In this document: positions 6,224 to 60,960 of the stretch, in pieces
Layout of the letters: the number at the start of each line of letters is the position of its first letter
Position numbering within the stretch: the first letter of the stretch is position 1
Source: Eunapius fragilis
Lineage: Eukaryota; Porifera; Demospongiae; Spongillida; Spongillidae
DNA: 64,000 bases
Direction: 5' to 3'
Assembly: GCA_963681505.1 (NCBI GenBank)
Contig: OY811980.1
Span: 7,941,118-8,005,117, forward strand
Made by a program: the position numbers and the translations under genes
Notes under the pieces: model-generated
Told to the model about the DNA's origin: nothing
The model's database searches: none
Seen by the model: the letters and a program-made list of their open reading frames with translations, nothing else

Positions 6224-8473
6224 TTAGTGTGGTGCTGTTAACTCCCTAAAGTTGGCATAGTTATCAAAGCTCCTGACATACTCTGCAAGCACCTCATGGC
6301 ACAAGATGTACTGGTCCTGTGAAGATGGGCATTAAATAGGATGTGAATAAATGTGATGTAATAAGCAAATGCCTTAGTTATTTGGAGTGAGGAAAGGGAT
6401 ATAGACACACCACATAAGGAGACAAGGGTAATAGGCAAATGCTCTCCATAGAGAAATAAGGACATACAAGGCCATAGCCAGACCTTCAAGGGAAGGGGGG
6501 GGGGGGGGGGGGGTCGGATAATCAGATATGTGTGACCCTATTCTAAATGCAGACAAGTTGCATTATTAAACAGTCAGCGGTATGTTATGGAACGCACATG
6601 TACATTGAAATCATGCGTAACAAGTGTACATGAATTGAAGCAAATCACTGTGACCTGCTACGTTCCTTATAGGAACATAGCAGGTGACAGGTGACCTTCA
6701 TTATGGGAGGGAGGGGACAGGTGACCTTCATTATGGGAGGGGGGGGGGGGGGCAGGTGACCTTCATTACGGGAGGGGGGGGTCGTTCGACCCCATTGACT
6801 CCCTGGCCTACGGCCCTGACATAAGACAAGACATTGTGCTGTGGTGTGGACTGGTACTTACCACATTCTGTACAAAATATGGACGGAAGATCCTGGAAGC
6901 CTTGATGCAGTGAAATATGTCAACCACACCCTCCACCTTCATTCTCTCCAGAGCATAATGCATGCATATGAAAGCTCCAGTACGTCCCATGCCATCACTG
7001 ATAGGGGTGTGGAGGTGTGAGGGAGGAGGGTGTGGAGGTGGGAGGGAGTGGGGGTGGGGTAGGGAGAGTACGGAGGGTGGGGTTGAGAGCAGGGACGATG
7101 AAGTGAGGGTACATGGGAAAACAAGCAATGTATAAGTATTGCATGGCTGGTTTAAACCACTGTTGTCATAGCAATACCTACTTGCACATCACAGTGATTG
7201 GTTTGTTCCCGCTGTTCATTTGAGCCTTGGTCAGCTGCTGGAGGAGGTCCAAGAGGGAGGAGCTGCTGGAGGCCACACCTCCAATGGGCCAACCCATGTA
7301 ATGGAATTGAGTCAGCAAAAATCCATCCTTTAGTATAGAGAACACACAAGTACTCATTAACACCATCAGTGTACAAGGGAGCACATTAACACCATCAGTG
7401 TACAAGGGAGCACATTAACACCATCAGTGTAAAGGGAGCACATTAACACCAAGAAGCACACATTTACACTATCAGGCTGACTATGATATATGACTAACTT
7501 TGATGCAAATGCAAATAATCCAATTATGTGTATTAATCAGCAGTTATAGTCTGCATAACCATAGTCTGCATAACCATAGTCTGATCACAGTGTGGGAAGT
7601 TGTGCATTGCTAATAAAATGCACTGAAGCCATAAAATATTCAATTATCACCTCCATCACCCATAGCAAAGATATATAATCTCTGCCCATAGTGCACAGAT
7701 TTTTTTTTTAAGTGGTGGTATAGGATATGAAGGCAATGGTGGTGTAAAATGGAAGGGAACAAGGGATCAACGATGATACGAAAAAAATTATTTTAGCAAT
7801 GTTATACAAAAGTGCTAAATATAGGACTTCCAATAGACCATGTAGGCACCATGGCAGGAAAGGTAGCTTGGTGGGCTAGGGGTTGGGGAGCACTGTTAGG
7901 CTGACCTCTTCCTTCACGTATAGCTTCCTGACCACCAGGGACTCAGTAACGGCCTCAGATTGAAGGGTCACTGTTATTCCTCCGTATGTTTGCGTCTCCC
8001 CTTCCTCTGTGGGCCAGTAGCAGTAAGAGGATTCACGACCTTCCTCTGTCAGGTGACACAGCATGACAATGACCCTGCTCTTGAACTCCCACACCATCCT
8101 CCAGAAGTCTTCCACTGTGTTCTGTAGAGGACCCTGGGTGGCTATGTAAGCATTACGCCGCTTGTAACCCTAGAGGAGGGAGATGAGTTAGAATTGGCCA
8201 TCCACCCATATATGGTCGCATGGTCGTACGTCAACAAAGCTGGCATTGACGTAATCAGATCCTTCTTCATCACTCGCCTTGAGATGACATCGATTCAAAT
8301 TATCTAATTCAGGCAAATGAACAAGTGATTGCCATATTCTATTTACAGCACACTCAAAATATTACGACCATACATGGCAGCCTGTCCAGGTAGCGGTTCT
8401 TCTCTCTGTTGTAGGCCTCACTGCCTTCAAAGTGCTCATTCACTGCTGGTACTCGACTGACTTTTTCCAACAC
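6224..8473 (-). other. Gene A D2: membrane-distal phosphatase domain with altered P-loop
   Basis: The domain runs over exons 8374-8473 to 6224-6316. It keeps [19 protein letters not shown] and [10 protein letters not shown]. The acid loop is WPIGGV instead of WPD. The P-loop, joined across an intron, is VMC-NDGMGRTG: Cys and Arg are present but the preceding His is replaced by Met and S-A by N-D. Weak or no activity is the usual expectation for such D2 domains. Confidence 0.8.
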
Positions 8474-11400
8474 CTTAAAGAAGTAAATTTCATCAAATCA
8501 CTGCTAAATTGAGCCATTTCTAATCAATGTACAGTTGTATGTAAAATTACCACATGGCGATAATGGCCCACGTATTCAAGATGAAAGCTAAATATTATCC
8601 CACTGCACTGATTCATTTAGTCAGCCAACCAAAAAAAAAATTTTTGGATAGAATTTGATTAAGTAGAAGGAATTTCCTAAAATATTATGCCTTACTAAGG
8701 AAGGCCCTGGGTCCCTTTCAAACCCTTCACATTGCAAACACCCAATAGTATGTACCATAAACTGTTCCTCATATCCTGTCATGTTCGTTCCCGGCACATT
8801 CCCGCTAAGTTCCTTCATCTTCATGGAGAGGTACGTTGAGCTGACGTCAGTCTCACCACATGTGATGAGCTCATCCAACACATCATGTATGAACACATAC
8901 TGGTCCTACAATGGGGGTGTGGCCCTGACTTCACCAATAAGCACCTAAGGGGTTAAACTGACCAATGTCTGCACCATCATGACTCTGTTCTTCCTCATCT
9001 CCATCACAAAGCCCCACACACTCAGCGAGGCTTCTTTCTTCATCCTGTCCATCATGGCGTCCAGTACAATGAAGGTCCCAGTGCGCCCCACCCCCGCACT
9101 GCAATGGACCACTAGGGGAATCCCCTTGCTCTTGTCATGGGTCTTCTGTACTCTCCTCACAAAGTCAATGATGGAGGTGGCAAACTGGGGTACCCCGTGG
9201 TCTGGCCAGGCAGTATAGTGGAAGTGGGTGAGTTTAAGAGTACCCTTGGATGGATCATCTTTCTGAGGAGAGAGACATATGGTGTGTGGCGTGTGCATGT
9301 GTGTACTGCTCGTAATCTATTGGCCCTGGTAACACGGTTTCCCTCTCCCTCACTCTCCCTCCCTCTTAAAACTCACACTCTTTATGACAAAGGTTCTCAT
9401 CTCATAGTCAGCACAGGGTATGTAGGAGACAGTCTTGATGGTGAGGGTGTCTGTCTCCAAGGACTCATTAAGCCTCTCAGCCCAGTACTGCTCACACTTT
9501 GCCTACAGGGGTCAGGTGTAATAAATACAGCAAGTAAAAGGGGGAGGGGGGGGGCTCTAATTTGGGTAGCAAAGATGGCATACCATGCAATGATGCTCTG
9601 TAACTCATCAACACTACATTAAGGTACAACACATGAATACCTATCAGGTGATCATTAGCTGACTAACAGATGACCATAAGTCAACCATGAAGTAATTGTC
9701 CTGCGGCTGCAGTTCTGAAAACCATTACCTTCTTCTGGTCCCCATCCCCATACCTCTGGTCCCAATCCCATACCTCTCTGGTCCCCATCCCCGTACCTCT
9801 CGTCCCCATACCTTTCCACCTTCAATGCACTTTGTCAACATCACGATACAGCTGATGTGTAGTTCCCAGACCATCCTCCAGAAATCCTTCACCGTATGTT
9901 CCAAGGGACCTATTCCAATGGCACCATCAGATCAATGCACAAATTACCATGGTAACCAACCTTGAGCTGCAACATAGCAGTTTTTATGTTCGTAGCCCTA
10001 TAAGGACATGGGTGTACACATGAGCACACACCAGTGCTGGTGAGAGTGTGGACTTGCATCTATGTAGCTGGCATTGATGTAGTCTGACCCTTCATCACCT
10101 GGGATAGGTTCAAGCTTCACTCTACTGGCATCATCTGTAGAAGGTTGAGAAGTGAGGCCACCTGCATACTGATCCAAGTACTCATATATTAATGTTTTTA
10201 CAAGTCCACTATACTCACAGCCTCCACCCTCCCCCACATCCCTCCCCTCCCCCACATCCCTCCCCTCCCCCACATCCCTCCCCTCCCCCCACATCCCTCC
10301 CCTCTCCCACATCCCCTCCCCTCCCCCACATCCCTCCCCTCCCCACATCCCTCCCCTCCCCCACATCCCTCCCCTCCCCCACATCCCTCCCCTCCCCCAC
10401 ATCCCTCCCCTCCCCCACATCCCTCCCCTCCCCCACATCCCTCCCCCTACTTCCTTCCCCTCCCCCACATCCCTCCCCCACATCCCTCCCCTCCCCACAT
10501 CCCTCCCCTCCCCCACATCCCTCCCCTCCCCCACATCTCTCCCCTCCCCCACATCCCTCCCCTCCCCCACATCCCTTCCCCTACTTCCTTCCCCTCCCCC
10601 ACATCCCTCCCCTCCCCCACATCCCTCCCCTCCCCACATCCCTCCCCTACTTCCCCCATCGTCCATCTCCAACAGCAAACACACACATGAAACATGTTCC
10701 CCTTCCAAAACAAAGTTAAAGCTACAAACATGGACAAGTAAATGGACCACTGCCATAAATGGATCACTGCCGTAAATGGATCATTATACTATAATAGGAT
10801 CATCATCCCATCCATACATGGACATAACCCTACAAGGACATCACCCTACATGGAAAGATATTGCCAAATCTGTTTTTAGGTCTGTTGCACTCGAGGGCAG
10901 AGGTGTTACGTGACGCCAGAGGGTGTGATGGGATCAGCTGTTTTAAGGAGAGGGGAGAGGGGAGGGAGGGAGTAAGTGACAGCAGAGGAATCAAGAGTTG
11001 GTTTGTCCTAACCTGGTACTCCTTGGCAAAGCCTCTGTCCTTCTCTTCGTGCATCTGGCGAACATGCTCACTGAAGTCCTTCAGCTGTACGGCTTCACAG
11101 CCAGCATCTACGCACCCACACACACTGGTCAAGACACACGCCCCCACATCTAAGAGGACCCGCCCACACACTGGTCACACCCCCACATCTAAGACACACT
11201 GGTCACGCCCCCACATCTAAGACACACTGGTCACGCCCCCACATCTAAGACACACTGGTCACGCCCCCACATCTAAGACACACTGGTCACACACCCACAT
11301 CTAAGACACACTGGTCACGCCCCCACATCTAAGACACACTGGTCACACCCCCACATCTAAGACACACTGGTCACGCCCCCACATCTAAGACACACTGGTC

Positions 11401-14400
11401 ACACCCCCACATCTAAGACACACTGGTCACGCCCCCACATCTAAGACACACTGGTCACGCCCCCACATCTAAGACACACTGGTCACGCCCCCACATCTAA
11501 GACACACTGGTCACGCCCCCACATCTAAGACACACTGGTCACACCCCCACATCTAAGACACACTGGTCACGCCCCCACATCTAAGACACACTGGTCCACG
11601 CCCCCACATCTAAGACACACTGGTCACGCCCCCACATCTAAGACACATTGGTCACGTCCCCCCCCCCCCCACACACAGCTAAGAGGATCCACCCACACAC
11701 TGGTCAAGACACACGCCCCCACTGCAGACCTTTCTTTTGGTCTTTGGCAGGGGTGTGGTCTTTCCTTCCCTCCTCTGTTTCGCTAGGGCTCAGTGACTGG
11801 ACAGATGCTGTCTCAGACTTTGTAATATTCTGCATCTCACGGGTTTCCACAGAATTGGAGTAATGTGCTTTACGCTTATGGCTGTGCCTGCAGGAGAGAA
11901 GACATTGAGACATGTACAAAGGTGATGTAAGGGGAAGTACCTAATGACTATGACAGCAGTGACTATACTGACGACAACAATAATCACCATGACAACAATG
12001 ATTACAGCTGCTATGATTCCACCACTTGAACCTGATGTAAAGGAAGGAAGGGGGAGGAGGTGTAAAGGAAGGAAGGGGGAGGAGGTGTAAAGGAAGGAAG
12101 GGGGAGGAGGTATAAAGGAAGGAAAGGAAGGTGTAAAGGAAGGAAGGGGGAGGAGGTGTAAAGGAAGAAAGGGGGAGGAGGTGAAGGGAGAGGGGGTGTA
12201 AAGGAAGGAAGGGGAGGGGTGTAAAGGAAGGAAGGGGAGGTGTAAAGGAAGGAAGGAGGAGGAGGTGTAAAGGAAGAAAGGGGAGGAGGTGAAGCGGAGG
12301 GGTGTAAAGGAAGGAAGGGGAGGGGTGTAAAGGAAGGAAGGGGGAGGGGTTTAAAGGAAGAAAGGGGAGGGGTGTAAAGGAAGGAAGGGGGAGGGGTTTA
12401 AAGGAAGGAAGGGGAGGGTGTAAAGGAAGGAAGGGGGAGGAGGTGAAGGGAAGGGGTGTAAAGGAAGGAGGGGGAGGAGGTGTAAAGGAAGGAAGGGGGA
12501 GGGGTTTAAAGGAAGGAAGGGGAGGGGTGTAAAGGAAGGAAGGGGGAGGAGGTGTAAAGGAAGGAAGGGGAGGAGGTGTAAAAGAAGAAGGCAAGGAGGT
12601 GTAAAAGAAGAGGGGGAGGAGGTAAGTAGGAGGGAATGTGGGGTCCATCACTATCAGATGAGACACACCACACTGGCACACATAGCACACACACATCACA
12701 CAATACCTGTGCCTCCTGAAACAGGTACTGAGGGAGATGTAGCCTTGTTACTAATGGGACCAAGAATACCATTTTTGGTCTGAACACGGACAGTCACAGA
12801 ATAGTCCTTTGAAGGCTCCAGCCCTGAGACCACCACTGATGTCATGTTGGTAGTTACAGAGATCTGACCCTGACGAATGGTCTTCACAACTGGTCCATAG
12901 ACGATGACGTAATCCACAAACCCTCTGGCCTGTGAGAGGGTCAGAGGTGACCAACTGATGTTCATGCTCAGACCATCTGGTGATCTTGACACCCTTAGTC
13001 CCCCAGGGGCCACACTAGGGACTGAACACACAGGGGTACGTGGTGATGTCATAGCCACACCTTTAATGAGGTCACATCATGGCTTACCCTGCTCCACTGT
13101 GAAGAAGACCTTGCACCACGAGTCCCCAGGACCAAGTGGGTTGACTGCACTAATGCACGTCTGGTAGGGCACTCCTGGATCTGGGTGCACACAGGGTTAA
13201 AACATCAAACTGGTGGGTGTGGTGTAGGCATACTCACTTAGACCACTCCAAGTATATGACATCATGATGACATCAACAGTGGTGGTCATTGCAGTACCAC
13301 TAACAGGGACACCATAGTCCAGTAGTTGTACAATGGAGAGGACATAGCCTGTTAGTCGTCCATAGGTCTGCTGGGGTGCACTCCAACTGATCACAGAGGT
13401 ACTATCTGATGGTGTAGCCACTGATGGACCACTCACCACACCTGGGACTGTAAATGGACAGATGGGAGTGAAGTGATGGAGTGTGGGGAGGTGGACATAA
13501 CTCACTTCTCACAGCTACATCTGCTGCTGATGAACCTATCCTATAGATATCCTTATATGGTAAGGTTGTCACTGCAGTACAGTTGTATGAGGTGAGGTCA
13601 GACATAGTCAGAGGACCTAGGGAGAGTGTCCCACTGGATCCTAGGTACAATCCATCTATCCTGGTCCAGGTCAGACTAACAGGTAATACCAGACCAGCTA
13701 CCACCATGGCCTGACATGTTAGTGAGTACATTGCACCAAGGGAGGGTAGAGGGAGGGAAGGAGTGATGGTGACATTGGGAGCAGGAAGATCTGATGGAAG
13801 AGGAAGGGACCAGAGATGGTGAGGATGAATGGAGTGTATTTGTAGCACTGACCTAGGACCTGAAGGGACAGAGAACCACCTCCCACTCCTGAGATGGTAT
13901 AGGGAGCCCCAGGTAGAACAGAGACATTACAGTAGTACCCTCCGCTGTCAGCAGTACCAAGAGGGTTAAACATGAGTGTGGTGACATAGGAGGAGCTGAT
14001 CATGGAGAGTAGTGATATGGTAGTGTAGTCATCAATAGTTATAACTGATGGTCCCTTGAACCAAGTTATGGTAACAGGAGTGTCCACTTGTGGGATGAGC
14101 TGAACATTACAGGTGAAGTTGAGTGGTGTACCAGCATAGTATGAGGAGGTGATGGGTGTGGAGGTGATGGTAACAGTGGGAGGAGGGACTGAGGGAAGGG
14201 GAGGCAGTAATTAGAGCTCACTACTAACACTCCAATCACTTACTTAGAACAGTGACATTCATCATGGCTGTGGTTGTTGAGCTGAATAGTGAACTTAGTG
14301 TAGACTGGCAGACATACTGTCCTCCATGAGAGGTGCGCAGAGGGTTAAATGTGAGGTTACCATTGGATACAGTGATGCCATTTCCACTGGTAACCACTCC

Positions 14401-23400: not shown

Positions 23401-23508
23401 AAGTCTGAAGTATACTAAAGTAAAAAAAGTTCGTTTTGGATTGATGAAATACAAAGTAGTACCGGACATACAAACATGATCAGCTAGTGGTCCCACACAC
23501 ATAGACAT

Positions 23509-23554
<46 letters not shown>

Positions 23555-23906
23555 ACACACATACACACACACATACTGATGATTGCACATGTGAATGTTT
23601 TTAAGAGTCAGCATTTCATGTTAGTGGCCAAATGTTGGCACATTTTGTCATTCTACACTTTAAGCACGTGAGCACGGTGTAGCAAATTAAAAAACCATTT
23701 GATGGGATGATACACTAGTATATAACATATCAAATCTATCCTTGGACCCATACGCGCAAAGAGAAAACGTACAAAGAAAGTTTTTAAAAAGCCTACATGT
23801 GGGCGAACATCCTGATCTTATGTAGGTGTGCATGTATATTTAATGCTTTATGAAGTTTGTTTGTGTTTGGATCGAATATGGTATACCTTCTGCAGGGACC
23901 AGCACT

Positions 23907-23943
<37 letters not shown>

Positions 23944-26977: not shown

Positions 26978-28480
26978 CCAAAATGGGCAGGATCATTCAG
27001 CAGTGATACATTACATCACTGCCACATCACCTGTACAATAGGGGCAATTCTTTCTATTTTTAAGTCATGAATATACCTCCATGGGGATACAAAACAAACA
27101 GTGTGCATTTGTGGAAGGAAAAGTTTATATTGAAAGTACACTTAACCTGTTATCAACATTGAAGGTACCACCCACATGAGTACCACCCATATGTATAGAG
27201 GTGGGTACAACACTGAAGGTATACATGTACCACCCACATGTAGAGGTGTGTACATTGAAGGTAAACTTACCACATTGCTGACAAAGTTAGGTCGTCTTAT
27301 CCTTGAGGACTTGATGAACTGGAAGAAGTCCACCACATGTTCAGTCTTAAGTCTCTCCATCATGGCATGGATGGTGATGAAGGTACCAGTACGACCCATG
27401 CCATCACTGGGGGGGGGGGGGGGGGGACCAGGAATTGGTCAATGTGCATTAATTTAAAATGCCACCCCAATAACACTAAATATGCAATCACTGATGTGTG
27501 ATGGTGATAATGTGATGACACACACACACACACTCACTTGCACACAACAGTGATGTATTTGCCACTGTTGCTGCTGTTTCCACACTGCATCTGTGCCTTT
27601 ACAACAGAGTCAGCTATAGAGATGACTGATTTGGTCTCTTCAGGACAGCCCATCTCAGGCCACCCAGGGTGGTGGAACAGGGTCACCTGGAGCTGCTGGG
27701 AGAGTTCCTGTGGAAGGGTGGGGGAGGAGGCAGTCACCATGGCTACCTAGAGGAGTGCGCAAACCTTTTCATCTTTGAGACGCAGCTTGTAGATGTTGTC
27801 GTCATCATTTTTGTCTAAACTAACTGACAGCTTGCCAAATGAGTAGGACTCCCCAGCCCTTAACGGCCACAACTTGGTCATATCGACCCCTTGCTAGGGA
27901 TGGAGAGGGGAGGGGGGGAGGTGGTAACACGGTGTTCATTAAATAGAAGACGCGTTACCTCATCCAGACGACACAACACGACAATGGTCATGCTCTTGAA
28001 CTCCCACACCATCCTCCAGAAGTCATTCATAGTGTTCACAAGAGGGGCTTGGGCAGCTATGTAGGCATTGCGCAACTTGTAACCCTGTGGGGAGGAGGGG
28101 ACCAAAGTAACCGTTACCATGGAAACACAAAAGTCAAGGAGGCTGACATCAATAAAGCTGGCATTAATGTACTCTCCTCCTTGTGCCCCCACCCCTGTGG
28201 CCTTGAGACGCACTCGGTCACGGTTATCTGATGATGGGAGGGAGGAGAGAAGAGGGAAGAAAGGGGGAAGGGAAGGGAAGGAACGGGAGGGGAGAAGAAG
28301 AGGGAAGAAAGAAGGGAAGGGGAGGAGGAAAGGTGGATTCAGAATAGGGAATGCATTAATGATATGTTCCACCTCCTTACTTGGCAGTCGATCAGGATAT
28401 CTGTTCTTTTCATTGTTGAACTCCTGCCTGGCTTCAGACGTGTCACTATTATTTGGCTTGTGACTGACCTTCTCCAGAAG
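26704..28480 (-). other. Gene B D2: phosphatase domain lacking the P-loop histidine
   Basis: It keeps [18 protein letters not shown] and [11 protein letters not shown]. The acid loop is GWPEMGCP. The P-loop joined across the intron is VVC-NDGMGRTG. The Q-loop glutamine is replaced ([14 protein letters not shown]). Such D2 domains usually serve regulation or binding rather than catalysis. Confidence 0.8.
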
Positions 28481-29283: not shown

Positions 29284-29367
<84 letters not shown>

Positions 29368-40950: not shown

Positions 40951-40964
40951 CATCAATATGCCAT

Positions 40965-46395: not shown

Positions 46396-46427
46396 TGTAC
46401 ATGTAAACGATAAAACACACAGCAAAA

Positions 46428-49900: not shown

Positions 49901-52900
49901 CATTAGGATATCTCATTAGGATACCATACAACATGTAGCACTGCATATGATATGTACACTTTACTGTGTGTGATATGTGTGTACACATTGCTGTATGTGT
50001 CATGATTGCTCATAGCTTCAGTATGTATTCATAACATGGCCTGGTGCACTTCACATGTGTATGTCAACCTCAGCTCCCAGTGGTACCCTGGACGTTAATG
50101 TCACCTCAAATGTAAGTACCATCCTTCTGAGGTGGAAGCCTCTGTCTCCAGTTGAGGCCAGAGGGTTTGTGAGGTACTACCTGGTCACCTGGACACCCAG
50201 TACCAGTAGAGCCAGAGGGACCACAGGAGGAGGGACAGCTAACCTGACTGCTGACATCACCACATACCTCATCACTGGGCTGGACCCAATGGTGGCCTAT
50301 GTGGTATCAGTCAGTGCTGGAACCACAGCTGGTGTTGGGGCAATGTTCTCAAACTCCACTTACTCCACTGAAGGTATAAATGGAGCACTGCTCTAATTAG
50401 TGCCTACCTCTATTACTAAACCCATTACAGAGGCGCCAACTGCTGTGCCATTGCAGTCCCAGCCATGTGGTGCTCTGTGTGTGGCACTACTCACATCTAT
50501 GGCAGTACTGGTTGTCATGGTGGCAGGACTTGTGTCCATCATATTGGCAGCTGTGTATCTTCGTACAATACTTTCAAGGTCTGTATACCCGTGCGGGGCG
50601 GAAGAGTCTTCACTAAGTCACTACCAGGTGGCTATGGGGGGTCACCATCAGGGAGTCAGGGGGTTGGGGGTCCCATCAGGGGGGCTATGGGGGTACCATC
50701 CTAGGACTATGGGGGTCACCTCAGGGGGCTATGGGGGTCACCATCAGGGGGTTGGGGGTCACCTCATGGGGGCTATGGGGGTCACCACAGGGGGCTATGG
50801 GGATTGCCATCAGGGGGCTATGGGGTCACCACAGGGGGCTATGGAGGTCGCCATCAGGGGGTATGGGGTCACCATTAGGGGGCTATCGGGGTCGCAAGCA
50901 GGGGGCTGGGGTCACCCCAGGGGTCTGGGGGTTCCATCAGGGAGCTATGGGAGGGTTATGCAGGGAGCCACAGGGAGCCACAGGGAGGGTTATGCAGCAC
51001 CACTGGTGTGGCCATTTAGCACTAGTACTGGTGTCAGATGATAGTACTACTCCTTGGTGTCGGTTGATAACACCTCCCCTTTGTGTCAGTTGATAACACT
51101 GCCCCTTGGTGTCAGTTGATAACACCATCCCCTTGGTAACACCATCCCTTGTCCACAGGAGAAAGCATCACCAAGGAGAGCAGATTACACCATCACCTCA
51201 TCACTATGATGGTGGGTGTGGTCATCTACAAGTGCTGTCTCTAAAAAGTTGTTCCATCCTCCCTCCTACCTCCACCCCCTCCTCACCCTCTCACCCTCCC
51301 TACCTCCACCCCCTCCACCCCCTCCCTAAGATGTACATGAATTCCACAAGCTGAAGGCTGGGCTTCATCCCTGTGAGTGCACAAGGGTGGCACTAACTCT
51401 AACTGGGCAACAATTGGAGAAGATTGGAGCTTACATAGATGTGAATATAGTAAGTGGTATGATGTACAGCTACAACTGTGGTATAAGGATGTGGTTAAAA
51501 GGTCATCTGTTGATTAGTAATGAGACATAAATTAATTTCAAAACCTGCTAAGGCTGCAATATTGGCTGGCTTACATGTTGTCACAAGGTTCATTAACTTG
51601 CAGCTGTTCATGACAGATGACCTGTGACCTACCCTAAATTTGATACCATACCCTTGTAATGGAATGATTGTGTGTGTGTGTGGGAATGTGACCATTGGAA
51701 TGACATGATTGGTCATTGGCTTTAGGTGATATGAGCTATTAATTAATTACCATGGTAACATATCACTCCTCAGCCATCAGCCAAGGTAGAGAAGCTGCGT
51801 GCTTACATAGTGGCCCAGGGTCCCATGCCATCCACTGTGAGGGACTTCTGGAGGATGGTTTGGCAGGAGAAGGTGAACACCATAGTCATGTTGACCCAGT
51901 GCAATGAGGGAGGGAAGGTAAGACACGCCCCCTCCCCTCTTCCCCAGTCTAATGTGTCCGCCCCCATATCATCTATGAACAGTACTGGCCAGACAAAGTG
52001 GGAGGGACCATGGAGCCATTGCCAGGGATCACGGTCACCTTGGAAGAGGCCACACCCCTTACTGACTATGTGACTAGAAAACTGAGAGTTGAGATGGTAA
52101 GTGAAAACCACACCTACTTACGTCGTGACCACGCCTACTTAAAATACGACTGCTCTCACACCTTTAACCCTTTCAAGACTGGCAATGCGGCGGTGATGGT
52201 TTCCCACTTCCAGTATGAAGGATGGCCGGACACTGGGGTACCAGCTTCTGCCACCTCCATCACCGACTTTGTCAGACATGTTCACAGGGGGCGTGGCTCA
52301 GCTGGCCCCACACTGGTGATGTGCAGTCGTCATGACAGCGGTGGGGCAGAAGCTATCGCCATATTGGAGTGTGTGGCGGAGGTGTGGGAGAGTATGGTGG
52401 ACATGGGAGAGTGCCCTAAGCACACCGTAAGTCTGGGGAGGAGGATGCAGGGCTTGATTTAACATTTAACCCTTCCATGCCCACCCAGGATCCCTTCAGT
52501 GTATTTGTGCATAAGGCCATAGATGAACTCACCTACGACAGTATGGTTCAAGAGGGAGACCTCTGCACCAAGATTACTGAGCTCCACAAAGCGACCTCTG
52601 GGGAACATGGGACCCCTTGGAGGGGGTCAGGGTTCAAACAGCAGTATCAAGTGAGCCTACTTGGCGGTGGTCGGTGTGCTCTATTTAGAATGATGGGTGT
52701 AGCAGTGTGTTTTAATTATGTTCCATCTGCAGAGACTGGACCATTTCAGTCAGTCCACATATAAAGATACAGACGTGGATCAACACAGCAAGCCCCATTG
52801 TACGTTGCAAAGGATCACTCATCCCACACCTTCCACCCTCACCCCTTGTCATCCCTCCCTCCCTCCCATATCACCTCCCTCCTCCGTATGCAGCCTATTG

Positions 52901-53147
52901 TAATCAACCGTCATCCCACATGAGACATCATGTGAAGTATTACTCCAACGCAAGTTTCATTGATGTTAGTTATCTATGCTGGCATATCGCCATGGTAACA
53001 CTCCATCATTCCATGTAGGGATACAAGGTACGCAATACCTACATAGCTGCCCAAGCCCCTCTTGGGAACACAGTGGAAGACTTCTGGAGGATGGTGTGGG
53101 AGTTCAAGAGCATGACCATTGTCGTGTTGTGTCGTCTGGATGAGGTA

Positions 53148-53204
<57 letters not shown>

Positions 53205-54391
53205 TAGCAGATATGATCTGCCTTGTACCCATTAGGAGGGCGTGGTCACCTTCTGGCCTAGGGAAAAGGTTGTGGAGTATGGAGCATTCTCCATCACCAT
53301 GGAGAATCAGGCAACACAGGGCAGTACTTGTGTTTACGTGTTGGAGATGAAGAACTGCGAGGTAGTGTATGAAGGGGCGTGGTCAAGGGAGAGTGGTCAG
53401 TGATTTGTGTGGAGGTGATGTTAGTACTGGGGTGACATGTGGGTGAGGTTATTGTTGCCATGGCATTGCAAGGTAAGGTGCGTGACATTTCATTTTTTTG
53501 CTGTTGTCAGGGCAACAGTCATAAGGTCACGTTGGTCCACTACATTGGCTGGCCTGCCAATGAGAGGCCACATACCACTGGTGACATCAAAGAGATCCTA
53601 GGGCTTCCTCAGCTGTCAACAGAGAACAGTCCCATAGTGGTGGTGTGCAGGTGAGGGGTGTGGCATTGTGGTGGTGTGCAGATGAGGGGTGTGGCATTGT
53701 GGTGGTGTGCAGGTGAGGGGTGTGGCATAGTGGTGGTGTGCAGGTGAGGGGTGTGGCATTGTGGTGGTGTGCAGGTGAGGGGTGTGGCATTGTGGTGGTG
53801 TGCAGGTGAGGGGTGTGGCATTGTCGTGGTGTGCAGGTGAGGGGTGTGGCATTGTGATGGTGTGCAGGTGAGGGATGTGGCATTGTGGTGGTGTGCAGGT
53901 GAGGGGTGTGGCATTGTGGTGGTGTGCAGGTGAGGGGTGGTTAAAGGTGGCATCACGATAACAGCACAATAAATTGTACTATTAATCAATCACAAATATG
54001 GTGGTGTATGTACATAGTATATGTGACATCATAATACTGATTCATTTACTATAGAGACTGTCACATTTGCACTCACATTTAGTAAATACAACCATATTTG
54101 TAATGTAACCCCTCCCCCTTCCTCCTCGCCCCCTCAGTGATGGCATGGGTCGTACTGGTACCTTCATCACCATCCATGCCATGATGGAGAGACTTAGGAC
54201 TGAACATGTGGTGGACTTCTTCCAGTTCATCAAGTCCTCAAGGATAAGACGACCTAACTTTGTCAGCAATGTGGTAAGTTTTCACTACTACCCCATCCCT
54301 CCACCTCTCAATCCATTCCTCTGGTCCCCAGGAACAATACATATTTTGCTACGAATGCATCGTTGATTGCATTCAGTTTGAGGACAAATGA
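46984..54391 (+). CDS. Gene C: RPTP paralogue of B with inactivated D1
   Basis: The model has 23 exons, 3687 nt, 1228 residues, phase kept throughout: 46984-47029 (signal [16 protein letters not shown]), Ig 47331-47618, 47675-48058 and 48173-48535, FN3 48664-48972, 49179-49367 with 49557-49649, and 50074-50373, membrane 50431-50578, then 51159-51211, 51331-51449, 51774-51917, 51983-52096, 52178-52426, 52489-52650, 52733-52799, 52894-52964, 53019-53144, 53236-53361, 53511-53650, 54138-54273 and 54332-54391 (stop TGA 54389-54391). Ectodomain exons and introns are an inverted, nearly identical copy of gene B, except that Ig1 and Ig2 match gene D better. D1 is degenerate but there are no stops or frameshifts, so the protein appears to be kept as a pseudophosphatase. 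It ends 195 bp from the stop codon of gene D on the other strand. Confidence 0.85.
48973..49146. repeat. Minisatellite copying the FN3-exon splice donor
   Basis: About seven units of CCATATGTTGTGGGAGGGGC plus CTTCCC (24-27 bp) follow the donor CCCCC|GTATGTTGTGGGAGGGG at 48972. Each unit repeats the ATGTTGTGGGAGGGG part, with GT changed to AT in most. The single ancestral copy is visible in gene B at 36690-36720. Confidence 0.85.
50431..50578 (+). other. Gene C transmembrane exon
   Basis: It encodes [20 protein letters not shown] then [18 protein letters not shown], a hydrophobic span with a weakly basic end. The next exon starts with KHHQGEQ. Intron 50579-51158 after it is a Gly-coding open minisatellite, so retention would give a truncated membrane receptor. 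Confidence 0.8.
50640..50960. repeat. Minisatellite GGGGGCTATGGGGGTCACC
   Basis: Irregular units of GGGGGCTATGGGGGTCACCA plus TCA lie in gene C intron 50579-51158. They are open in the frame that continues from the membrane exon up to a stop near 51041. Confidence 0.85.
51331..52650 (+). other. Gene C D1: pseudophosphatase domain
   Basis: The N-terminal exon fuses what are separate exons in gene A and lacks the KNRY/KNRF loop altogether, going from [10 protein letters not shown] directly to [26 protein letters not shown] and GWPDTGVP remain. The P-loop is [11 protein letters not shown] (Cys codon 52322-52324): His and Arg are lost. Catalysis is not expected. Confidence 0.82.
53145..53203. 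repeat. (GT)n microsatellite at a splice donor
   Basis: A long GT run begins directly after the donor GATGAG|GTAATG of exon 53019-53144. Confidence 0.92.
53642..53942. repeat. 31-bp minisatellite copying the catalytic-loop splice donor
   Basis: About nine units of TGGTGTGCAGGTGAGGGGTG plus TGGCATTGTGG (31 bp) begin at the end of exon 53511-53650. Every unit repeats both the exon end GTGTGCAG and the donor GTGAGG, giving a ladder of identical 5' splice sites right after the Cys codon of the D2 loop. Confidence 0.9.
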
Positions 54392-54586: not shown

Positions 54587-55923
54587 TCAGACTTTGTGTT
54601 GCTGATACATGCTTAGGGTCTCATAGCACAGTCTGACATGTTCCTATGGATACAGTAACATAACGTTACAGACATGTTAGCAGAAGGAATGACATTTCTC
54701 ACCGCACAGCGAATGAAGTGTGGACATCTTGCTCTACTGGAGTTAATGAACTGGATGAAGTCCACCTCACCTTCCCTGTCTGCCATCTCCATCATGGCAT
54801 GGATGGTGATGAAGGTACCCGTACGACCCATGCCATCACTGAGGGGGGAAGGGGAGGGGCATGAGGGCGTTACCATGACAAGTGTGGGTGTGGTCACGTA
54901 CTTGCACATAACTATCATGGGGGCGGGGCTTCTATGTAAGGAGTGTATCTTTGAGCAGAAGGTGAGGAAATCCTCATCATTCTCGGGACGTTCACCTTCT
55001 GGCCAGGTGGTATAGTGATGCAATGAAACCTCATTGACAGCCTGTAAGGGCTGGGGATGAGTAAGACCACTTTCACACACACAATTTGGAGGGAGGTGTG
55101 GCTAAGTGAAGGTGCCTTAGGGGAAGGATAGATACAACACTCCATACCATCATGTGACCACACAACACTCCATACCATCATGTGACCACACAACACTCCA
55201 TACCATCATGTGAACACACAACACTCCATACCATCATGTGACCACACAACACTCCATACCAGTGTTACCTTTCCCTTTCAGTCTCACCTTCTCTTCTTTC
55301 AGTTCCAGTTTGTACACTGTAATACCATCCTTTGCTGAGCTGTCAGGATTTTCTGTCAGAGTGACTGCCATTTTCCCATACATCAGTGTCTCTCCTGGTC
55401 TCATAGGCCAGTACTGAACCACTCTGTCCTGTTAATGAAGAGTAGCTGTCACACATGGACACAACCAACACACACAAATACAAGTACACACATTACCTCA
55501 TCCAGACGACACAACATGACAATGGTCATACTCTTGAACTCCCACACCATCCTCCAGAAGTCTTCCACTGTGTTCTCAAGAGGGGCTTGGGCAGCTATGT
55601 AGGCATTGGGTCTCCCGTTGTATCCCTATATGGAATGATGAGGTGTTACCACCACACCCATGCATTCCCCCCTCACCCCCACACCACACCCATGCATTCA
55701 CCCCCACATATGAACACTTACATCAATGAAGCTGGCATTGATGTAGTAATTCTTTTCATAGGGAAGCCTTACTATGCTGCTGTCATCTGCAAAGCCAGCA
55801 CCATCAGATAAACACATTCATGGTGTGAGGGCACTTACAAGGCACTAAGTCCTTGTAGCGGTTCTTTGTGCTGTTATTCATAGCATGGGATGAGGTGTTG
55901 TTATCCTGCTCACTGTGCAGAGC
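54587..55923 (-). other. Gene D phosphatase domain (D2 type)
   Basis: Seen in order: [55 protein letters not shown] and [13 protein letters not shown]. The last exon reads [18 protein letters not shown], so the Q-loop glutamine and tyrosine are lost. It resembles the D2 domains of A-C and is probably not catalytic. Confidence 0.78.
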
Positions 55924-58900
55924 CTGAGGAGATGTTTAAAGCCACTAGTTAAAGAGAGGCTGTAGAGATGTACAATACACCCCACTGGGGTAGGCCACAC
56001 CTGATTGCCTACACACATAACTCTTAATATTACCTCAAATATATGCTTAAACCTAGCTTTGCTTATTATTTCATCCAGATCGGCTAAAGGAATAGCTGTG
56101 GTTTGAGGTTCATTTGGCTTCAAAGTTATTGATGGGGGTGGAGCATCATGTGACTCCTTATGTTTCTCATCTACAGATGCATAAGCATATTTGATCATAA
56201 TCTGACCACACCCATCACAGCAGTACCTTTGATTTCCTCATATACTGGGGAAGCAGGCTGAACTGAATCTTTACATGTGGTGGAATTCTGACCTTTTTTC
56301 ACCTGTGATAGGGCCACTGTGGGTGGTCTCCATCCAGTAGTACTTCTGAAATGATGAGAGACATGACATGAGGAGGTGTGTTGGAGATATGAGGTGTGTT
56401 AGAGACATGACATGAGGAGGTGTGTTGGAGATATGAGGTGTGTTAGAGACATGACATGAGAAGGTGTGTTGAGATATGAGGTGTGGTAGAGACATGACAT
56501 GAGGAGGTGTGTTGGAGATATGAGGTGTGTTAGAGACATGACATGAGGAGGTGTGTTGGAGATATGAGGTGTGTTAGAGACATGACATGAGGAGGTGTGT
56601 TGAGATATGAGGTGTGTTAGACACATGACATGAGGTGTGTTGGAGATATGAGGTGTGTTAGAGATGACATGAGGAGGTGTGTTGGAGATATGAGGTGTGT
56701 TAGAGACATGACATGAGGAGGTGTGTTGGAGATATGAGGTGTGTTAGAGACATGACATGAGGAGGTGTGTTGAGATATGAGGTGTGTTAGAGACATGACA
56801 TGAGGAGGTGTGTTGAGATATGAGGTGTGTTAGGGACATGACATGAGAAGGTGTGTTAGAGACATGCAAGAGGGAGGTGTGTTGAGATATGAGGTGTGTT
56901 AGGGACATGACATGAGGAGGTGTGTTGAGATATGAGGTGTGTTAGAGACATGACATGTGGAGGTGTGTTGGAGATATGAGGTGTGTTAGAGACATGACAT
57001 GAGGAGGTGTATTGGAGATATGAGGTGTGGTAGACACATGACATGAGGAGGTGTGTTGGAGATATGAGGTGTGTTAGAGATGACATGAGGAGGTGTGTTG
57101 GAGATATGAGGTGTGTTAGAGACATGACATGAGGAGGTGTGTTGGAGATATGAGGTGTGTTAGAGACATGACATGAGGAGGTGTATTGGAGATATGAGGT
57201 GTGTTAGAGACATGACATGAGGAGGTGTGTTGGAGATATGAGGTGTGTTAGAGATGACATGAGGGGGTGTGTTGGAGATATGAGGTGTGTTAGAGACATG
57301 ACATGAGGAGGTGTGTTGAGATATGAGGTGTGTTAGAGACATGACATGAGGAGGTGTGTTGGAGATATGAGGTGTGTTAGAGACATGACATGAGGAGGTG
57401 TGTTGAGATATGAGGTGTGTTAGAGACATGACATGAGGAGGTGTGTTGGAGATATGAGGTGTGTTAGAGACATGACATGAGGAGGTGTGTTGGAGATATG
57501 AGGTGTGGTAGAGACATGACATGAGGAGGTGTGTTGAGATATGAGGTGTGTTAGAGACATGACATGAAGAGGTGTGTTGGAGATATGAGGTGTGTTAGAG
57601 ACATGACATGAGGAGGTGTATTGGAGATATGAGGTGTGTTAGAGACATGACATGAGGAGGTGTGTTGGAGATATGAGGTGTGTTAGAGACATGACATGAG
57701 GAGGTGTGTTGAGATATGAGGTGTGTTAGAGATATGACATGAGGAGGTGTGTTGGAGATATGAGGTGTGTTAGAGACATGACATGAGGAGGTGTGTTGAG
57801 ATATGAGGTGTGTTAGAGACATGACATGAAGAGGTGTGTTGGAGATATGAGGTGTGTTAGAGACATGACATGAGGAGGTGTATTGGAGATATGAGGTGTG
57901 TTAGAGACATGACATGAGGAGGTGTGTTGGAGATATGAGGTGTGTTAGAGACATGACATGAGGAGGTGTGTTGAGATATGAGGTGTGTTAGAGATATGAC
58001 ATGAGGAGGTGTGTTGGAAATATGAGGTGTGTTAGAGACATGACATGAGGAGGTGTGTTGGAGACATGACATGAAGAGGTGTGTTGAGATATGAGGTGTG
58101 TTAGAGACATGACAAGAGGGGGTGTGTTAGAGAAGACATAGTGTACAGTTTCCATCTGCTACACACTTTCTCCTCCTTGCTACTATGGCAATGATTATCA
58201 CTGCTATGGCTGCCCCTATCACCAACACCACCAGAACAGTGAAAGCAGCATATTTGGCATTTGAAGCACCTGCAATAGATCACATGTCACATCATCAGCC
58301 ATATGTTATTTACACATGCGGTTACTAGGCAACGGTGATGGTGTTGATGATGATGATGACAGTGATGAACTGCTGACTGGAGGAGTGGTGCTGGTGAAAG
58401 CTGACACAGGGGAAGAGAAGGATGGTCAAATAGTGAACACCAAACACACTGCTCCCCTCTCCCTCCTCCCCATCCACCATGGCTTCCCCTCCTCCCCCTC
58501 CCTAATCCCTTCCACCTACGTACGAGAGAAGAAAGCTATGTTCATGACAGGAGTGGAGGTGGTTCCCTCTGTGTTGGAGGCCATAATAGTGAAGTAGTAC
58601 ATGGATGAGGGGACCAGACCAGTCAGGTTGACACCAAACTGTCCTCCAATCACATTGAGGTATGCACTCCCATTCACAGGGGTGCTGGACTGGCTTAGAT
58701 TACCAGGAGCTGACCCATAACGGATAACATAGCTCTCCTGAGTGTACACAATGAAGGGAACTGTCCACATGATGCTAATGGTATCCATGGAAACATATTT
58801 GGCAGTGATAAATGTAGGTTGATTGGGTGGACCTTGAGATATCAGAGGACAAGGTGGGTGTGGTTAGAGCACATTGGGATACTGCATGTACTCACCTGGT

Positions 58901-60960
58901 ACAGAGACAGTAGCGGCTGCAGTCTGGTTCACAGGTCCATCAACAGGGACATACACCCTCACATCACATTGATAGGTGTACACCCCTGGGGGAGGCTGGG
59001 ATACTGTCAGAGTGCTGGTGGCATTGGGGGTGGAGTTAGTGACCCCGGGGGGCTGTGTCATGACAAATGTGGTCCCCCCAGTGAGGGCCACACCACTGCT
59101 GTTGAAGGTAATGGCCGAACTGTTGTAGCCATTACTCCAGCTCCAGGAGAACACAAAAGGCAGAGGGACAGAGGTAGGCTTGGTGGCAGTACAGTTGATC
59201 TGGAAGGAGCTGTTTGGAGATGACTGCAACATGGAGGGAGAGATGGTGGTCCCTAGGGGAAGGTCTGGGGAGGAGGGAGGAGGAGAAGATTAAGAAGGAG
59301 TAAGTGGAGTAAGTGGAGGAGGAGGAGGAAGTGGAGGAGGAGGAGAGGGAAGTGAAGGAGGAAGTGTAGGAGGGTGTTTGATAAACATTTCCGTACCACT
59401 GATGGTTGTAACTAATGAAGAGGCTCCAGTAGCAAGAGGTATGTAGTTGATGACGTAAGGTGAAGGTACCTTGGGTCCTATGGTAGGGGTGCAGTTATAA
59501 GGCCCACCATCTTTCCTGCTCAGGGCTGAGATGGTGAGGGTGCTGGTGTAAATAGTGACCACTCCAGAGGTGGTCGTGTTGGACGTCTGTATGGTCACAT
59601 GACCATCTGGTACCAATGGCTGCTGTGTTGGTCCCACCCACAAGATGGAGGTTGGTTCCAAACCAACGTAAGTTGTACTTATTCCAAATGTACACGTCAG
59701 TGTTAGTAGGCTTCCCTGGTAGTTAGGTAGTGGAGGGGTACTGGTGACCGTGATTGGAGGGCTTAACGACAGAGCCACTGAAAGTGCACAAGATTGTGAT
59801 TATACTGAACTAGTCCCCAGTCCAACCCCTCACCTGTGATGTTGAAGGCATAGCTGGCAGTTCTACTAACTCCATTAGCACTGGCATTGCATACGTACAG
59901 CCCTGCATATGACAGGACCACTGGAGATGACAGTGTAAGTGACCTTGATGTGGTACTGCCAGAGGTTGTTTGATTTCCCACTGATCCAGCAGGGTATGAG
60001 GTCCACGTGACATTGGGAGGGGCACCAGAGGTGGAGGTGGCTGCGCAGATTAAGGTGTACGGAGCTGAAGATCCCAGATTAATTGGGATGGGTCCAGTCA
60101 TGGTGATGTACTGGGCACTGACTGTAGGATAAATACAAGCGATTGAGCTGAGGCGGCACCCCCGCGGGATAGGGCGCGGTTAAGCGGTTAGACGCTTCGC
60201 TAGTTCTGGTGCTTCCGTTGGTACAATACACTAAGGCGGGAATTAACGAATCGTACGGCAGGCCAGGCTGAATATAAGCGCACACACGCTACACGCAGCG
60301 GCGGATACAGGTTTTGGGGGGGGGGGGGGGCACGGATGGTGGGTGTGGCTGGGGGTGGGGTCGGCTTCTGGCCCGATACGAAAAGCGGGGGGGGGGGGGG
60401 GGGGGGGGGTGCTGTCGGTTTATGGCCCGATACGAGGAGCGGGGGGGGGGGGGGGGGTGCTGTCGGTTTATGGCCCAAAACGAAGAGCGGGGGGGGGGGT
60501 GCTGTCGGATTCTGGCCCAAAACGAAGAGCGGGGGGGGGGGGGGGGGGGTGCTGTTGGTTTCTGGCCCGATACGAAGGGCGGGGGGAGGGGGGGGGGGAG
60601 TATGATCGCGTATCGGGGGGCCCGGGATATAGTGCAGTAGTAGAGTTCATGCGTGCGGATATCAATAGACAGCGCAATCGTGCAGCTATATTATAAAATG
60701 CGGCCCGAAAAGTTATGAATTTATTAATGAAGGGGGGGGGGGGGGGGGGGGGGCACGTGCCCCGAGTGCCCCCCCCCTGGATCCGCCGCTGACACGTCTC
60801 TACGCCCCTCCTCCTCCCCTTGATGCGCAAACCACCCAGGCCCTATTGAAGTTTGGCGGTATAAAAAATGAGCGAAGCCTACTGGGATATAGAGCCATAA
60901 CGTACCTGATACGAGGAGCGAGACCACAGCCACATACCAACCACAACCACCTTCGGGCAT
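54587..60960 (-). CDS. Gene D: short RPTP with 3 Ig, 1 FN3 and a single D2-type PTP domain
   Basis: The model has 16 exons, 2514 nt, 837 residues, in phase: 60906-60960 (signal [18 protein letters not shown]), Ig 59834-60121, 59397-59777 and 58896-59264, FN3 58524-58832, membrane 58167-58269, then 56227-56345, 56034-56170, 55839-55923, 55722-55786, 55497-55625, 55288-55428, 54902-55041, 54703-54838 and 54587-54643. The ectodomain is the B/C type with two FN3 domains missing. The D1 domain is absent. In its place is a linker with P-V-Y-E-E-I-K and a proline-rich stretch ([12 protein letters not shown]). The FN3 exon uses an internal CAAG acceptor because the upstream AG used in gene B is mutated. 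Intron 1 holds a transposon-like insertion, and intron 56346-58166 a large minisatellite. Confidence 0.83.
55125..55262. repeat. 32-bp minisatellite (CACAACACTCCATACCATCA)
   Basis: Four or five units of ACAACACTCCATACCATCAT plus GTGACCAC lie in gene D intron 55042-55287, ending close to the donor of exon 55288-55428. Confidence 0.85.
56227..56345 (-). other. Gene D juxtamembrane exon with YEEI motif
   Basis: In the frame fixed by the neighbouring exons it reads [20 protein letters not shown], then [12 protein letters not shown] and PVYEEIK (Tyr at about residue 536). pY-E-E-I is the classical optimum for Src-family SH2 domains. The other two frames contain stops or do not join in phase. Confidence 0.7.
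56350..58135. repeat. Large minisatellite, about 44-bp units
   Basis: About 40 units of GTGTTAGAGACATGACATGA followed by GGAGGTGTGTTGGAGATATGAG fill intron 56346-58166 of gene D. Units differ by small deletions (GGAG/GAG) and substitutions. Several blocks of units are repeated, for example 57541-57790 against 57800-58050. Confidence 0.9.
58167..58269 (-). other. Gene D transmembrane exon
   Basis: It encodes [20 protein letters not shown] then [11 protein letters not shown], a clean hydrophobic span with an arginine-rich stop-transfer end. The donor GTGTGT is the only one that leaves phase 2, as needed by the next exon. Confidence 0.78.
60296..60791. mobile_element. Inverted-repeat element with G-run minisatellite core
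   Basis: It begins CAGCGGCGGATACAGG and ends CCTGGATCCGCCGCTG (near-perfect 16-bp inverted repeat), flanked on both sides by ACACG, a possible 5-bp target duplication. The core has about five units of GGCCCGATACGAGGAGC plus 8-20 G and TGCTGTCGGTTT. It is non-autonomous and lies in intron 1 of gene D (60122-60905). Confidence 0.7.

Follow-up and report, generated by a model that had tools for sequence, protein, structure and literature searches.

In vertebrate immunity there are receptor families that combine a common stem and a variable tip with intracellular ends of opposite kinds, and self-recognition in a hydroid and a tunicate is controlled by clusters of transmembrane genes. Does a run of receptor-type protein tyrosine phosphatase (RPTP) genes in the demosponge Eunapius fragilis belong in this company? 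We analyzed a stretch of 64,000 nucleotides of contig OY811980.1 (the window), in which an earlier note had placed 4 RPTP genes, A to D, at 6224..60960 and had suggested, by analogy with paired receptors, a candidate recognition locus. The reading we prefer, at a probability of roughly one half, is a tandem RPTP cluster with copied exons, a common stem, a variable tip, and unlike intracellular ends, the products of which would serve as contact receptors.

We identified 4 real Ig/FN3 receptor genes with PTP tails in the window, placed as the earlier note had them (Table 1). Pfam Ig and fn3 domains were found in A, B, C, and D, the phosphatase domain (PF00102) was matched in the joined model of D and in a six-frame search of the window, and hydrophobic transmembrane (TM) stretches were read in all 4 genes. 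Genes A to D carry the features of receptor-type PTPs (Ig and FN3 domains, one TM, and a cytoplasmic PTP domain), and at the sequence level a catalytic D1 domain with a WPD loop and an HCxxGxxR P-loop was identified in A and B, as well as in E and H, two of the further genes lettered E to J, and was absent from C and D. The gene models are predictions from genomic sequence, made with a splice-aware HMM that we wrote ourselves and trained on this region. The claim that all 4 genes are complete was not borne out for B, in which no signal peptide was found, nor for C, in which the model has gaps at the 5' end and between the TM exon and 51781.

Table 1. Genes and exons of the RPTP cluster in the window (positions are those of the window)
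Feature	Position	Strand	Remarks
Gene A	6224..25148	-	RPTP with expanded Ig/FN3 array; 6224 is the 3' limit from the earlier note
Gene A, D1 P-loop exon	8963..9262	-	21-residue stretch with catalytic signature intact; PF00102 match
Gene B	27016..38337	-	Ig1-Ig2(B type)-Ig3-FN1-FN2-FNmp-TM-D1(active)-D2
Gene B, D1 P-loop exon	30106..30387	-	14-residue P-loop stretch; LAR/PTPRF and PTPRS are the best solved relatives
Gene B, Ig2	37511..37828	-	Type common at 78-84% only to five copies on contig C3
Gene C	47331..54273	+	Ig1-Ig2-Ig3-FN1-FN2-FNmp-TM-dead D1-D2 (WPA)
Gene C, Ig1 exon	47331..47618	+	12 copies show 3 divergent versions of the first half and almost no variation in the second
Gene C, membrane-proximal FN3 (FNmp)	50074..50373	+	
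Gene C, D1 P-loop exon	52178..52426	+	WPDTGVP kept; frame open up to donor GT at 52427
Gene D	54600..60960	-	Signal peptide-Ig1-Ig2-Ig3-FN1-S/T stalk-TM-YEEI-single D2-type PTP; 3' end approximate
Gene D, 31-nt exon	56227..56257	-	10 residues with YEEI; splices in phase in the model

The ectodomain of gene A comprised 26 predicted exons at 12707-25148 with 2,466 open codons, in which 13 Ig_3 and 3 fn3 stretches passed individually in Pfam, followed by a TM near 12.0 kb, an intact D1 carrying WPDHGVP and a 14-residue P-loop stretch, and a D2 with WPI, the last exon read being the D2 exon at 6862-6999. Both the expanded Ig array and the active D1 described for this gene were seen, with activity read from the intact signature. 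Inverted or truncated fragments of A-like genes were also located at 2436-5515 in the window and at C10:7860057, C10 being the contig of the cluster. In gene B, the full D1 signature that had been reported, WPDHGVP with an intact P-loop, was likewise present, and its D1 exon matched solved structures at a best E of 6e-43. The Ig2 of B represented a separate type, 33-37% identical to the Ig2 of C and D, with a next match of at most 39% after the C3 copies, and the first half of its Ig1 differed from C and D (dS 0.8).

Gene C had lost both the Arg and the His of the D1 P-loop, as noted earlier; a 15-residue stretch replaces HCSxGVGRS, while the Cys stays. No DYINAS/KNRY-type N-terminal D1 exon was found in 50301-51790 by motif search and tblastn, and together with the WPA of D2 these losses make C a predicted pseudophosphatase RPTP. 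Gene D starts with a signal-peptide exon (60906-60960), in agreement with the end point given before, is without FN2 and FNmp, and is open throughout its 829 joined codons. A single PF00102 domain (E 1e-62, positions 1-219 of 234) was identified, which in the spliced model is of D2 type (WPE, C-N-D-G-M-G-R), and a search for a D1 exon in this gene found none, so that the description of D as a gene without D1 but with YEEI held. Its YEEI exon was the sole match to the pattern Y[ED][ED][IVL] in the 304 kb searched, and we take the motif to be a Src-SH2-type ligand. Further, 5 copies of a juxtamembrane exon were found, and [VI]xYSEI was present in all three that were readable (G, H, and a copy on contig C19). 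The ITIM consensus is [S/I/V/L]xYxx[I/V/L] in a cytoplasmic tail, which VKYSEI (G), IIYSEI (H), and IMYSEI (C19) match but PVYEEI (D) does not.

The window is a slice of a far larger RPTP cluster at C10:6.98-8.46 Mb, and 40 kb of its right flank was read. Out of 72 D1-exon matches, 59 were on C10 and 47 of these within the cluster interval, each match being an exon and some genes yielding two. FN3 copies with at least 93% identity over at least 85 of 88 residues numbered 23 (C10:6.93-8.13 Mb), and the FNmp exon was 93-100% identical to that of B in eight C10 genes (including B) and one C19 copy. TRF arrays (period ≤100, score ≥150) covered 33,330 of 304,000 bases. When prokaryote contigs were scanned for a relative that would point to contamination, none was found; a search for innexin had no match, nor did its controls. 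Two adjacent cluster genes had identical D1 exons; in the D1-exon comparison, the distances of 7881732 and 7950080 to other exons were out of register and were left out.

Nine genes of the subfamily were found via their D2 exon. B, E, H, and J had a D1 P-loop exon with at least 69% identity, C had a degenerate D1, and D, F, G, and I gave no match to the D1 P-loop exon; of these genes, I is known through search coordinates and the start of its D2 end, and J through search coordinates only. Where it was read in B-H, the D2 P-loop was C-x-D-G-M-G-R, without His. The D2 of G had an in-frame stop, so at least 1 D1-less gene may be dead. The ectodomain family of B, C, and D gave 18 matches, 9 adjoining phosphatase exons and 9 on other contigs, and no D1 or D2 exon match was found near the latter, 2 of which (C3) close with a short, hydrophobic stretch that resembles a GPI signal. 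The C19 copy had no match in the D1 and D2 exon searches and was considered as a phosphatase-free gene; we dropped this assignment, as its 4.75 kb shows a TM, a YSEI exon, and a stretch resembling a D1 start.

We compared the ectodomains exon by exon. Near-identical ectodomain exons and introns in B, C, and D, as previously described, were not borne out, since all three Ig domains were common only to C and D; the C-D alignment ran through the Ig1-Ig3 introns (1,216 bp, 93.4%), whereas B and C aligned only in separate blocks. Within the one Ig1 exon of about 290 bp, silent divergence leaps from near zero to near saturation: the 66 pairs formed by 12 copies all had a dS of 0-0.16 in the second half, and in the first half dS ranged from 0.53 to saturation in 44 between-version pairs, exceeding 1 or saturated in 32 of them. 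Among 11 pairs subjected to permutation, B-H, C-H, D-H, C-B, and D-B reached p 5e-5, the lowest value that 20,000 shuffles allow, and the within-version control E-H gave p 0.55. This sharp break inside a single exon fits gene conversion. The same patchwork was seen along the genes, with dS between C and H of 0.03 in FNmp, 1.23 in Ig2, 1.75 in Ig3, and 0.04 in D2a, between B and C of 0.00 in D1a, 1.49 in D1c, and 0.00 in D2d, and between E and H of 0.01 in Ig2 and 2.51 in D2c, in a map that leaves out cross-domain entries (D1a/D1c of D, F, and G; D2c of C). Blastn matched C to H in blocks of 110-494 bp, five in all, each on an exon or a few exons in a row; two of these blocks were 98-99% identical. 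Homogenization in the cluster thus occurs at the scale of exons. Between C and D, 24 nonsynonymous and 6 synonymous changes were counted in Ig1 and Ig2 and for Ig3 the counts were 11.5 and 10.5 (Fisher p 0.07). These numbers lean toward positive selection without being significant, and we dropped it as the source of distal Ig diversity; so weak a dN/dS signal also counts against a recognition role.

Do these receptors form pairs? Paired receptors in the strict sense would bind ligands through near-identical ectodomains and carry opposite tails, all within a single recognition locus, and the part of the earlier claim that stood is that related ectodomains carry unlike tails, recurrently. All three Ig domains are common to C and D (dS 0-0.13), the tails of which differ, and G and H have Ig3, FNmp, and D2 in common (dS 0-0.1) although G is without D1. 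Homogenization by gene conversion, evident from the Ig1 halves, the exon dS map, and the permutations, follows the pattern of SIGLEC11/16 and CEACAM as given in excerpts of the sources (PMC5701461, PMC5112662). The evidence against the pairing itself is that no active and inactive gene with all three Ig domains in common were found among the genes read and the genome-wide Ig2 matches. Neither C nor D has an active D1, the Ig2 of G and H stand at dS 0.76, and opposite signaling is putative. Ectodomain similarity across unlike tails extended to Ig3, FN1, and FNmp in subgroups but not to Ig2, which in all seven genes read (B-H) differed between active-D1 genes and the rest, with dS of 0.76-0.88 between the Ig2 of E/H and those of F and G. 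A genome-wide search for the C/D type of Ig2 gave four matches with at least 76% identity, on C10 (C and D), C20, and C8, with no D1 exon match on C20 or C8, and neither B-H nor the genome-wide Ig2 searches yielded an active and an inactive gene alike in Ig2. This split by Ig2 between genes with and without an active D1 weakens the strict pairing, which we consider quite improbable; an Ig2 that tracks tail class is also ill suited to simple competition for one ligand.

A plainer account, less probable than our own but a serious one, is birth and death among fast-duplicating adhesion-type RPTPs, in which C, D, and the other D1-less or tail-less copies would be leftovers on the way to decay and the mosaic no more than a trace of unequal exchange in a cluster rich in repeats. 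The stop in D2 of G, the A-like fragments, and the extent of the TRF arrays agree with it, and recombination in such clusters requires no special role. However, no stop was seen in the exons sampled from C, D, and F (in tblastn pieces, which are biased to open stretches), D is open across its whole joined length, and the absence of D1 in 4 of 9 genes is recurrent. Neutral simulation from H exons gave a no-stop chance of 4.5-7% for the D1c exon (d 0.34-0.5) and of 1.6-8% for 185 D2 codons (d 0.13-0.25), so that openness is mild evidence of constraint. It is far less credible that the assembly placed divergent haplotypes of fewer genes end to end; blocks of 93-98% identity in alternating orientation and the adjacent genes with identical D1 exons might suggest so, but the copies are unlike in tail anatomy, orientation, intron content, and Ig2 type, occur on five other contigs, and show within-exon synonymous divergence from 0 to saturation.

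We documented the anatomy, the tail classes, and the mosaic of a long tandem Ig/FN3 RPTP cluster, and we propose that genes, exons, and exon parts have been copied between neighbors. Copying would hold FNmp near uniform, together with the second half of Ig1 and some of D2, and the distal Ig surfaces (first half of Ig1, Ig2, and Ig3) and several phosphatase exons would be old divergent versions that were recombined. The outcome would be surface receptors with a common stem, a variable tip, and differing intracellular ends, predicted as active D1 with D2 (A, B, E, and H), dead D1 with D2 (C), D2 only (D, F, and G), and, as a putative fourth class, the off-cluster copies, in which no PTP catalytic exon was found. 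We infer that the cluster proteins respond to contact or to a ligand and govern the state of phosphotyrosine nearby. Copies with an active D1 would strip phosphate when engaged or clustered, and dead, D1-less, or tail-less copies may compete with them for the same partners, associate with them, or draw in SH2 proteins by way of YEEI or YSEI. More tentatively, the variable tip might discriminate self, kin, or microbes, and on its sequence the cluster looks like a candidate cell-recognition locus with a putative recognition role. It is unlikely, though worth stating, that an early-branching animal has a germline recognition system built on receptor phosphatases, in which conversion at the scale of exons would join a few old versions of the Ig tip to active, dead, D1-less, or phosphatase-free ends and contact with like or unlike tips would alter phosphotyrosine signaling. 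If the recognition role is true, the cluster would reveal recognition by a new molecular means and provide a definite locus for testing it; even without that role, the locus shows exon-scale gene conversion in nature with particular sharpness.

Among known receptors, LAR-type (R2A) RPTPs (PTPRF, PTPRS, and PTPRD) share with the cluster genes an Ig and FN3 ectodomain, one TM, and D1 with D2; LAR/PTPRS were nearest to the D1 exon of B among solved structures, and Ig modules of RPTP delta and LAR were among the weak fold matches of cluster Ig1. Unlike the LAR type, the cluster groups exon matches by the dozen, its exons are shuffled, D1 is dead or absent in some genes, Ig arrays are expanded, and the D2 P-loop, where read in B-H, has no His. 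Sponge protein tyrosine phosphatases reportedly include many PTP genes that arose by duplication (Ono et al. 1999), a likeness to the cluster judged by the title of that work. In arthropod Dscam1, which is without a PTP tail, the N-terminal halves of Ig domains vary and the other half is constant, and Dscam and sDscam Ig domains were among the top fold matches of cluster Ig1; the cluster variants, however, are germline paralogues and not alternative exons. Among the literature matches listed, we recognized no account of a receptor-phosphatase cluster that serves recognition in sponges or other early animals, subscription papers and preprints being outside the scope of the search. SIGLEC11/16 and CEACAM, according to excerpts of the sources, have IgSF ectodomains homogenized by conversion and joined to different tails (PMC5701461, PMC5112662). 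The cluster resembles them in these respects and in the ITIM-like tyrosines of some tails, but its tails are phosphatase domains, its Ig2 differs by tail class, and opposing signals are putative here. Hydractinia Alr and Botryllus fuhc are clusters of transmembrane recognition genes, Alr consisting of IgSF genes with many partial copies (PMC11067881, PMC12065747, in excerpt), and the RPTP cluster is like both in its clustered transmembrane genes and like Alr in its IgSF domains and partial copies. In the same excerpts, Alr and fester are not described as phosphatases, and the RPTP cluster is known from the sequence of a single assembly; if its recognition role is true, it would be an allorecognition or immune locus with a chemistry unlike that of Alr, fuhc, or aggregation factors.

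Genes were modeled with a small, purpose-built, splice-aware HMM, whose splice sites are predictions, and the models were checked by Pfam, reading frames, and comparison with copies outside the window. The assembly searched comprised 219 Mb in 24 contigs and is probably that of an animal, judging by its Ig/FN3/PTP receptors. The window occupies C10:7941118-8005117, and 304 kb of this contig, C10 (C10:7741118-8045117), was read directly. HMM models, Pfam, and reading frames bore out the 4 genes (A to D) with Ig/FN3 ectodomains and protein tyrosine phosphatase (PTP) tails described in the earlier note. In gene A, 13 Ig_3 and 3 fn3 stretches passed on their own in Pfam, the first phosphatase domain (D1) was intact, and the second (D2) read WPI. 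A signal peptide was searched for in gene B and none was found. The tails of B, C, and D differed as described: B had an intact D1; the C D1 kept WPDTGVP and the P-loop Cys and had lost the P-loop His and Arg, with no D1 N-terminal exon bearing KNRY or YINAS found between its transmembrane stretch (TM) and 51781 and a D2 reading WPA; and D had no D1, a YEEI motif, and a PTP domain (PF00102, E 1e-62) with KNRY, WPE, and CNDGMGR. The near identity claimed for their ectodomains held between C and D, across all 3 Ig domains and the introns between, but B and D deviated elsewhere. Gene D was without FN2 and the membrane-proximal FN3 (FNmp), and B was not like C and D throughout, as its Ig2 and the first half of its Ig1 were other versions; Ig3, FN1, FN2, and FNmp were common to B and C (dS 0.02-0.21).

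Features of the window (plain positions) and of contigs C1, C10, C19, and C20 (L numbers label fetched stretches)
Feature	Position	Strand	Description
Gene A	25148 down to ~6.2 kb	-	26 predicted ectodomain exons, 2,466 open codons
Gene B		-	Ig1-Ig2-Ig3, three FN3, TM, intact D1, D2 with WPE
Gene C		+	domain order as in B; altered D1
Gene C D1 P-loop exon	52178-52426		open frame up to donor site
Gene D		-	Ig1-Ig2-Ig3-FN1, Ser/Thr stalk, one PTP domain of D2 type
Gene A material	2436-5515		rearranged fragment
Repeat of gene A 3' end	2436-3470		94-95%, including D2 exon 3225-3377 (-)
Part of gene A Ig array	3469-5515		inverted copy, 95%
Repeated open frames	679-1122, 1429-2292, 5579-6166		RPADI and PNW in common; we take them to be probable retroelement remains
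Open frames between B and C	42128-44061		resemble, we presume, hAT/zinc-finger-MYM transposase
Long intron minisatellite, A	20176-22082		29 bp units
Long intron minisatellite, B	35340-36086		31 bp units
Long intron minisatellite, D	56357-58069		44 bp units; between TM and YEEI exon, where D1 exons might be expected
A-like D1 (L020-L023)	C10:7881732 (within 7860057-7882001)		no nearby D2 match
A-like D2	C10:7860057-7860618		no nearby D1 match
Gene between these two	D1 7872550, D2 7871189		as if inserted or rearranged
Two genes (L014-L015)	C10:7794830-7808731		D1 exons 7796139 and 7808465, 12,326 bp apart
C19 copy (L035)	C19:545650-545790		ectodomain runs into TM, YSEI exon, and D1-start-like HIRDFADHVTLMHQDRDKVFDREFQSI, similar to E and H
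C20 copy	C20:5183792-5184826		Ig1 second half, C/D-type Ig2, and Ig3 close together (search coordinates); Ig2 and Ig3 each placed in 289-codon open frame
C1 match	C1:9534916-9534984		weak (68%, E 0.019), to hydrophobic C-terminal tail of C3 copies

The window is a slice of a bigger receptor PTP (RPTP) cluster. A D1 exon query returned 72 rows genome-wide (rows being exons, with some genes yielding two), 59 of them on C10 and 47 of those in C10:6.98-8.46 Mb, and an FN3 module of neighboring genes was present in at least 23 copies at 93-100% identity in C10:6.93-8.13 Mb among the 150 of 540 candidates that were scored. An intact D1 P-loop was read in 13 exons of the 304 kb, namely 10 A-type exons and those of B, E, and H; that of C was altered, and that of 1 further D1, from another subfamily, was interrupted in read-through. 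The D1 exons at 7796139 and 7808465 differed at 0 of 267 nt, pointing either to a tandem duplication of very recent date or to a stretch duplicated in the assembly.

By a D2 exon at ≥74% identity, the B/C/D subfamily comprised 9 genes, B to J, with E to J on C10 outside the window (B to H were read, I was read at its D2 end, and J is known by search coordinates). A D1 exon at ≥69% identity was identified in B, E, H, and J, and a degenerate D1 in C; D, F, G, and I gave no match in the genome-wide D1 exon search. F and G still carried a portion of the D1-D2 linker exon, so an internal loss of D1 from these genes is probable. Gene G had an in-frame stop in D2 and may be dead; the sampled exons of C, D, and F had no stop, and constraint on C and D is only mildly supported. 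A juxtamembrane exon with [VI]xYSEI, which we take to fit the ITIM consensus, was read in G, H, and the C19 copy, and exons of this type were located by search alone in I and J. Y[ED][ED][IVL] matched once in the 304 kb, at the gene D YEEI, the optimal Src-family SH2 ligand, on an exon distinct from the [VI]xYSEI exon.

The second half of Ig1 had 18 matches genome-wide, 18/18 without stops, with 9 on C10 (B to J) and 9 elsewhere (5 on C3 and 1 each on C1, C8, C19, and C20). No D1- or D2-exon row lay within 100 kb of the latter 9, and C19 had no D1 or D2 exon match in the genome-wide exon searches. In 2 C3 units, the last FN3 was followed in phase by GTTNMSTSYSGGVLILGIIIFFICFNFT (or one residue different) and then a stop, a tail that by composition looks like a GPI-anchor signal or tail-less TM. 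The C3 copies and B had the same versions of the Ig1 first half, Ig2, Ig3, and FN1.

Across 12 aligned Ig1 exons (B to H plus 5 from C3), the protein was nearly invariant from N[VI]xW on, and upstream of it fell into 3 versions, namely, C/D, B and C3, and E to H. The second half had dS 0-0.16 in 66/66 pairs, and the first half had dS from 0.53 to saturation in 44 between-version pairs (>1 or saturated in 32); B and H had 0 synonymous differences in 60 second-half codons versus 18.7 in 35 first-half codons. A permutation test (11 pairs, 20,000 shuffles) gave the floor p of 5e-5 for B-H, C-H, D-H, C-B, and D-B, 0.0001-0.011 for C-E, B-E, C-c3c, B-c3c, and H-c3c (c3c being one C3 copy), and 0.55 for the within-version control E-H. 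By exon, C-H dS was 0.03 in FNmp and 0.04 in phosphatase exon D2a, and 1.23 in Ig2, 1.75 in Ig3, and 0.68 in phosphatase exon D1c. Because protein selection cannot preserve identical silent sites, the mosaic is best and most simply explained by copying between genes (gene conversion). The shared blocks coincided with exons, and the likely reason is that the introns, rich in minisatellites, have diverged too much for pairing. Ig1 was predicted as an Ig fold (mean pLDDT 78, three sequences), in which the variable half would form the first 2 strands and the loop after, and the constant half the other 5 strands. Its fold matches were weak, with 7 at E ≤0.001, including titin, DSCAM, and sDscam, and RPTP Ig domains just below, a likeness of fold alone.

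The genes show a variable tip, a uniform stem, and several tail classes. The paired-receptor form proposed earlier stands as to unlike tails on related ectodomains, but is weakened in its strict form because Ig2 type differed with tail class. Ig2 type divided active-D1 genes from the others in 7/7 genes read (B to H), with B set against C/D and E/H (mutual dS 0.01) against F and G (dS 0.76-0.88), and genome-wide only 4 matches at ≥76% were found for the C/D type (C, D, C20, and C8) and only 6 at ≥78% for the B type (B and 5 on C3); tail and Ig2 are therefore linked. This suggests, from a few cases (7 genes in 2 subgroups), either different ligands for each tail or a constraint of another kind. 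The proteins would be a set of receptors for contacts or ligands. Active members would dephosphorylate their targets, and the dead, D1-less, and phosphatase-free ones may act as competitors, form pairs, or bring in SH2 proteins. A role in recognition is plausible by analogy with the KIR, Siglec, CEACAM, and Alr clusters.
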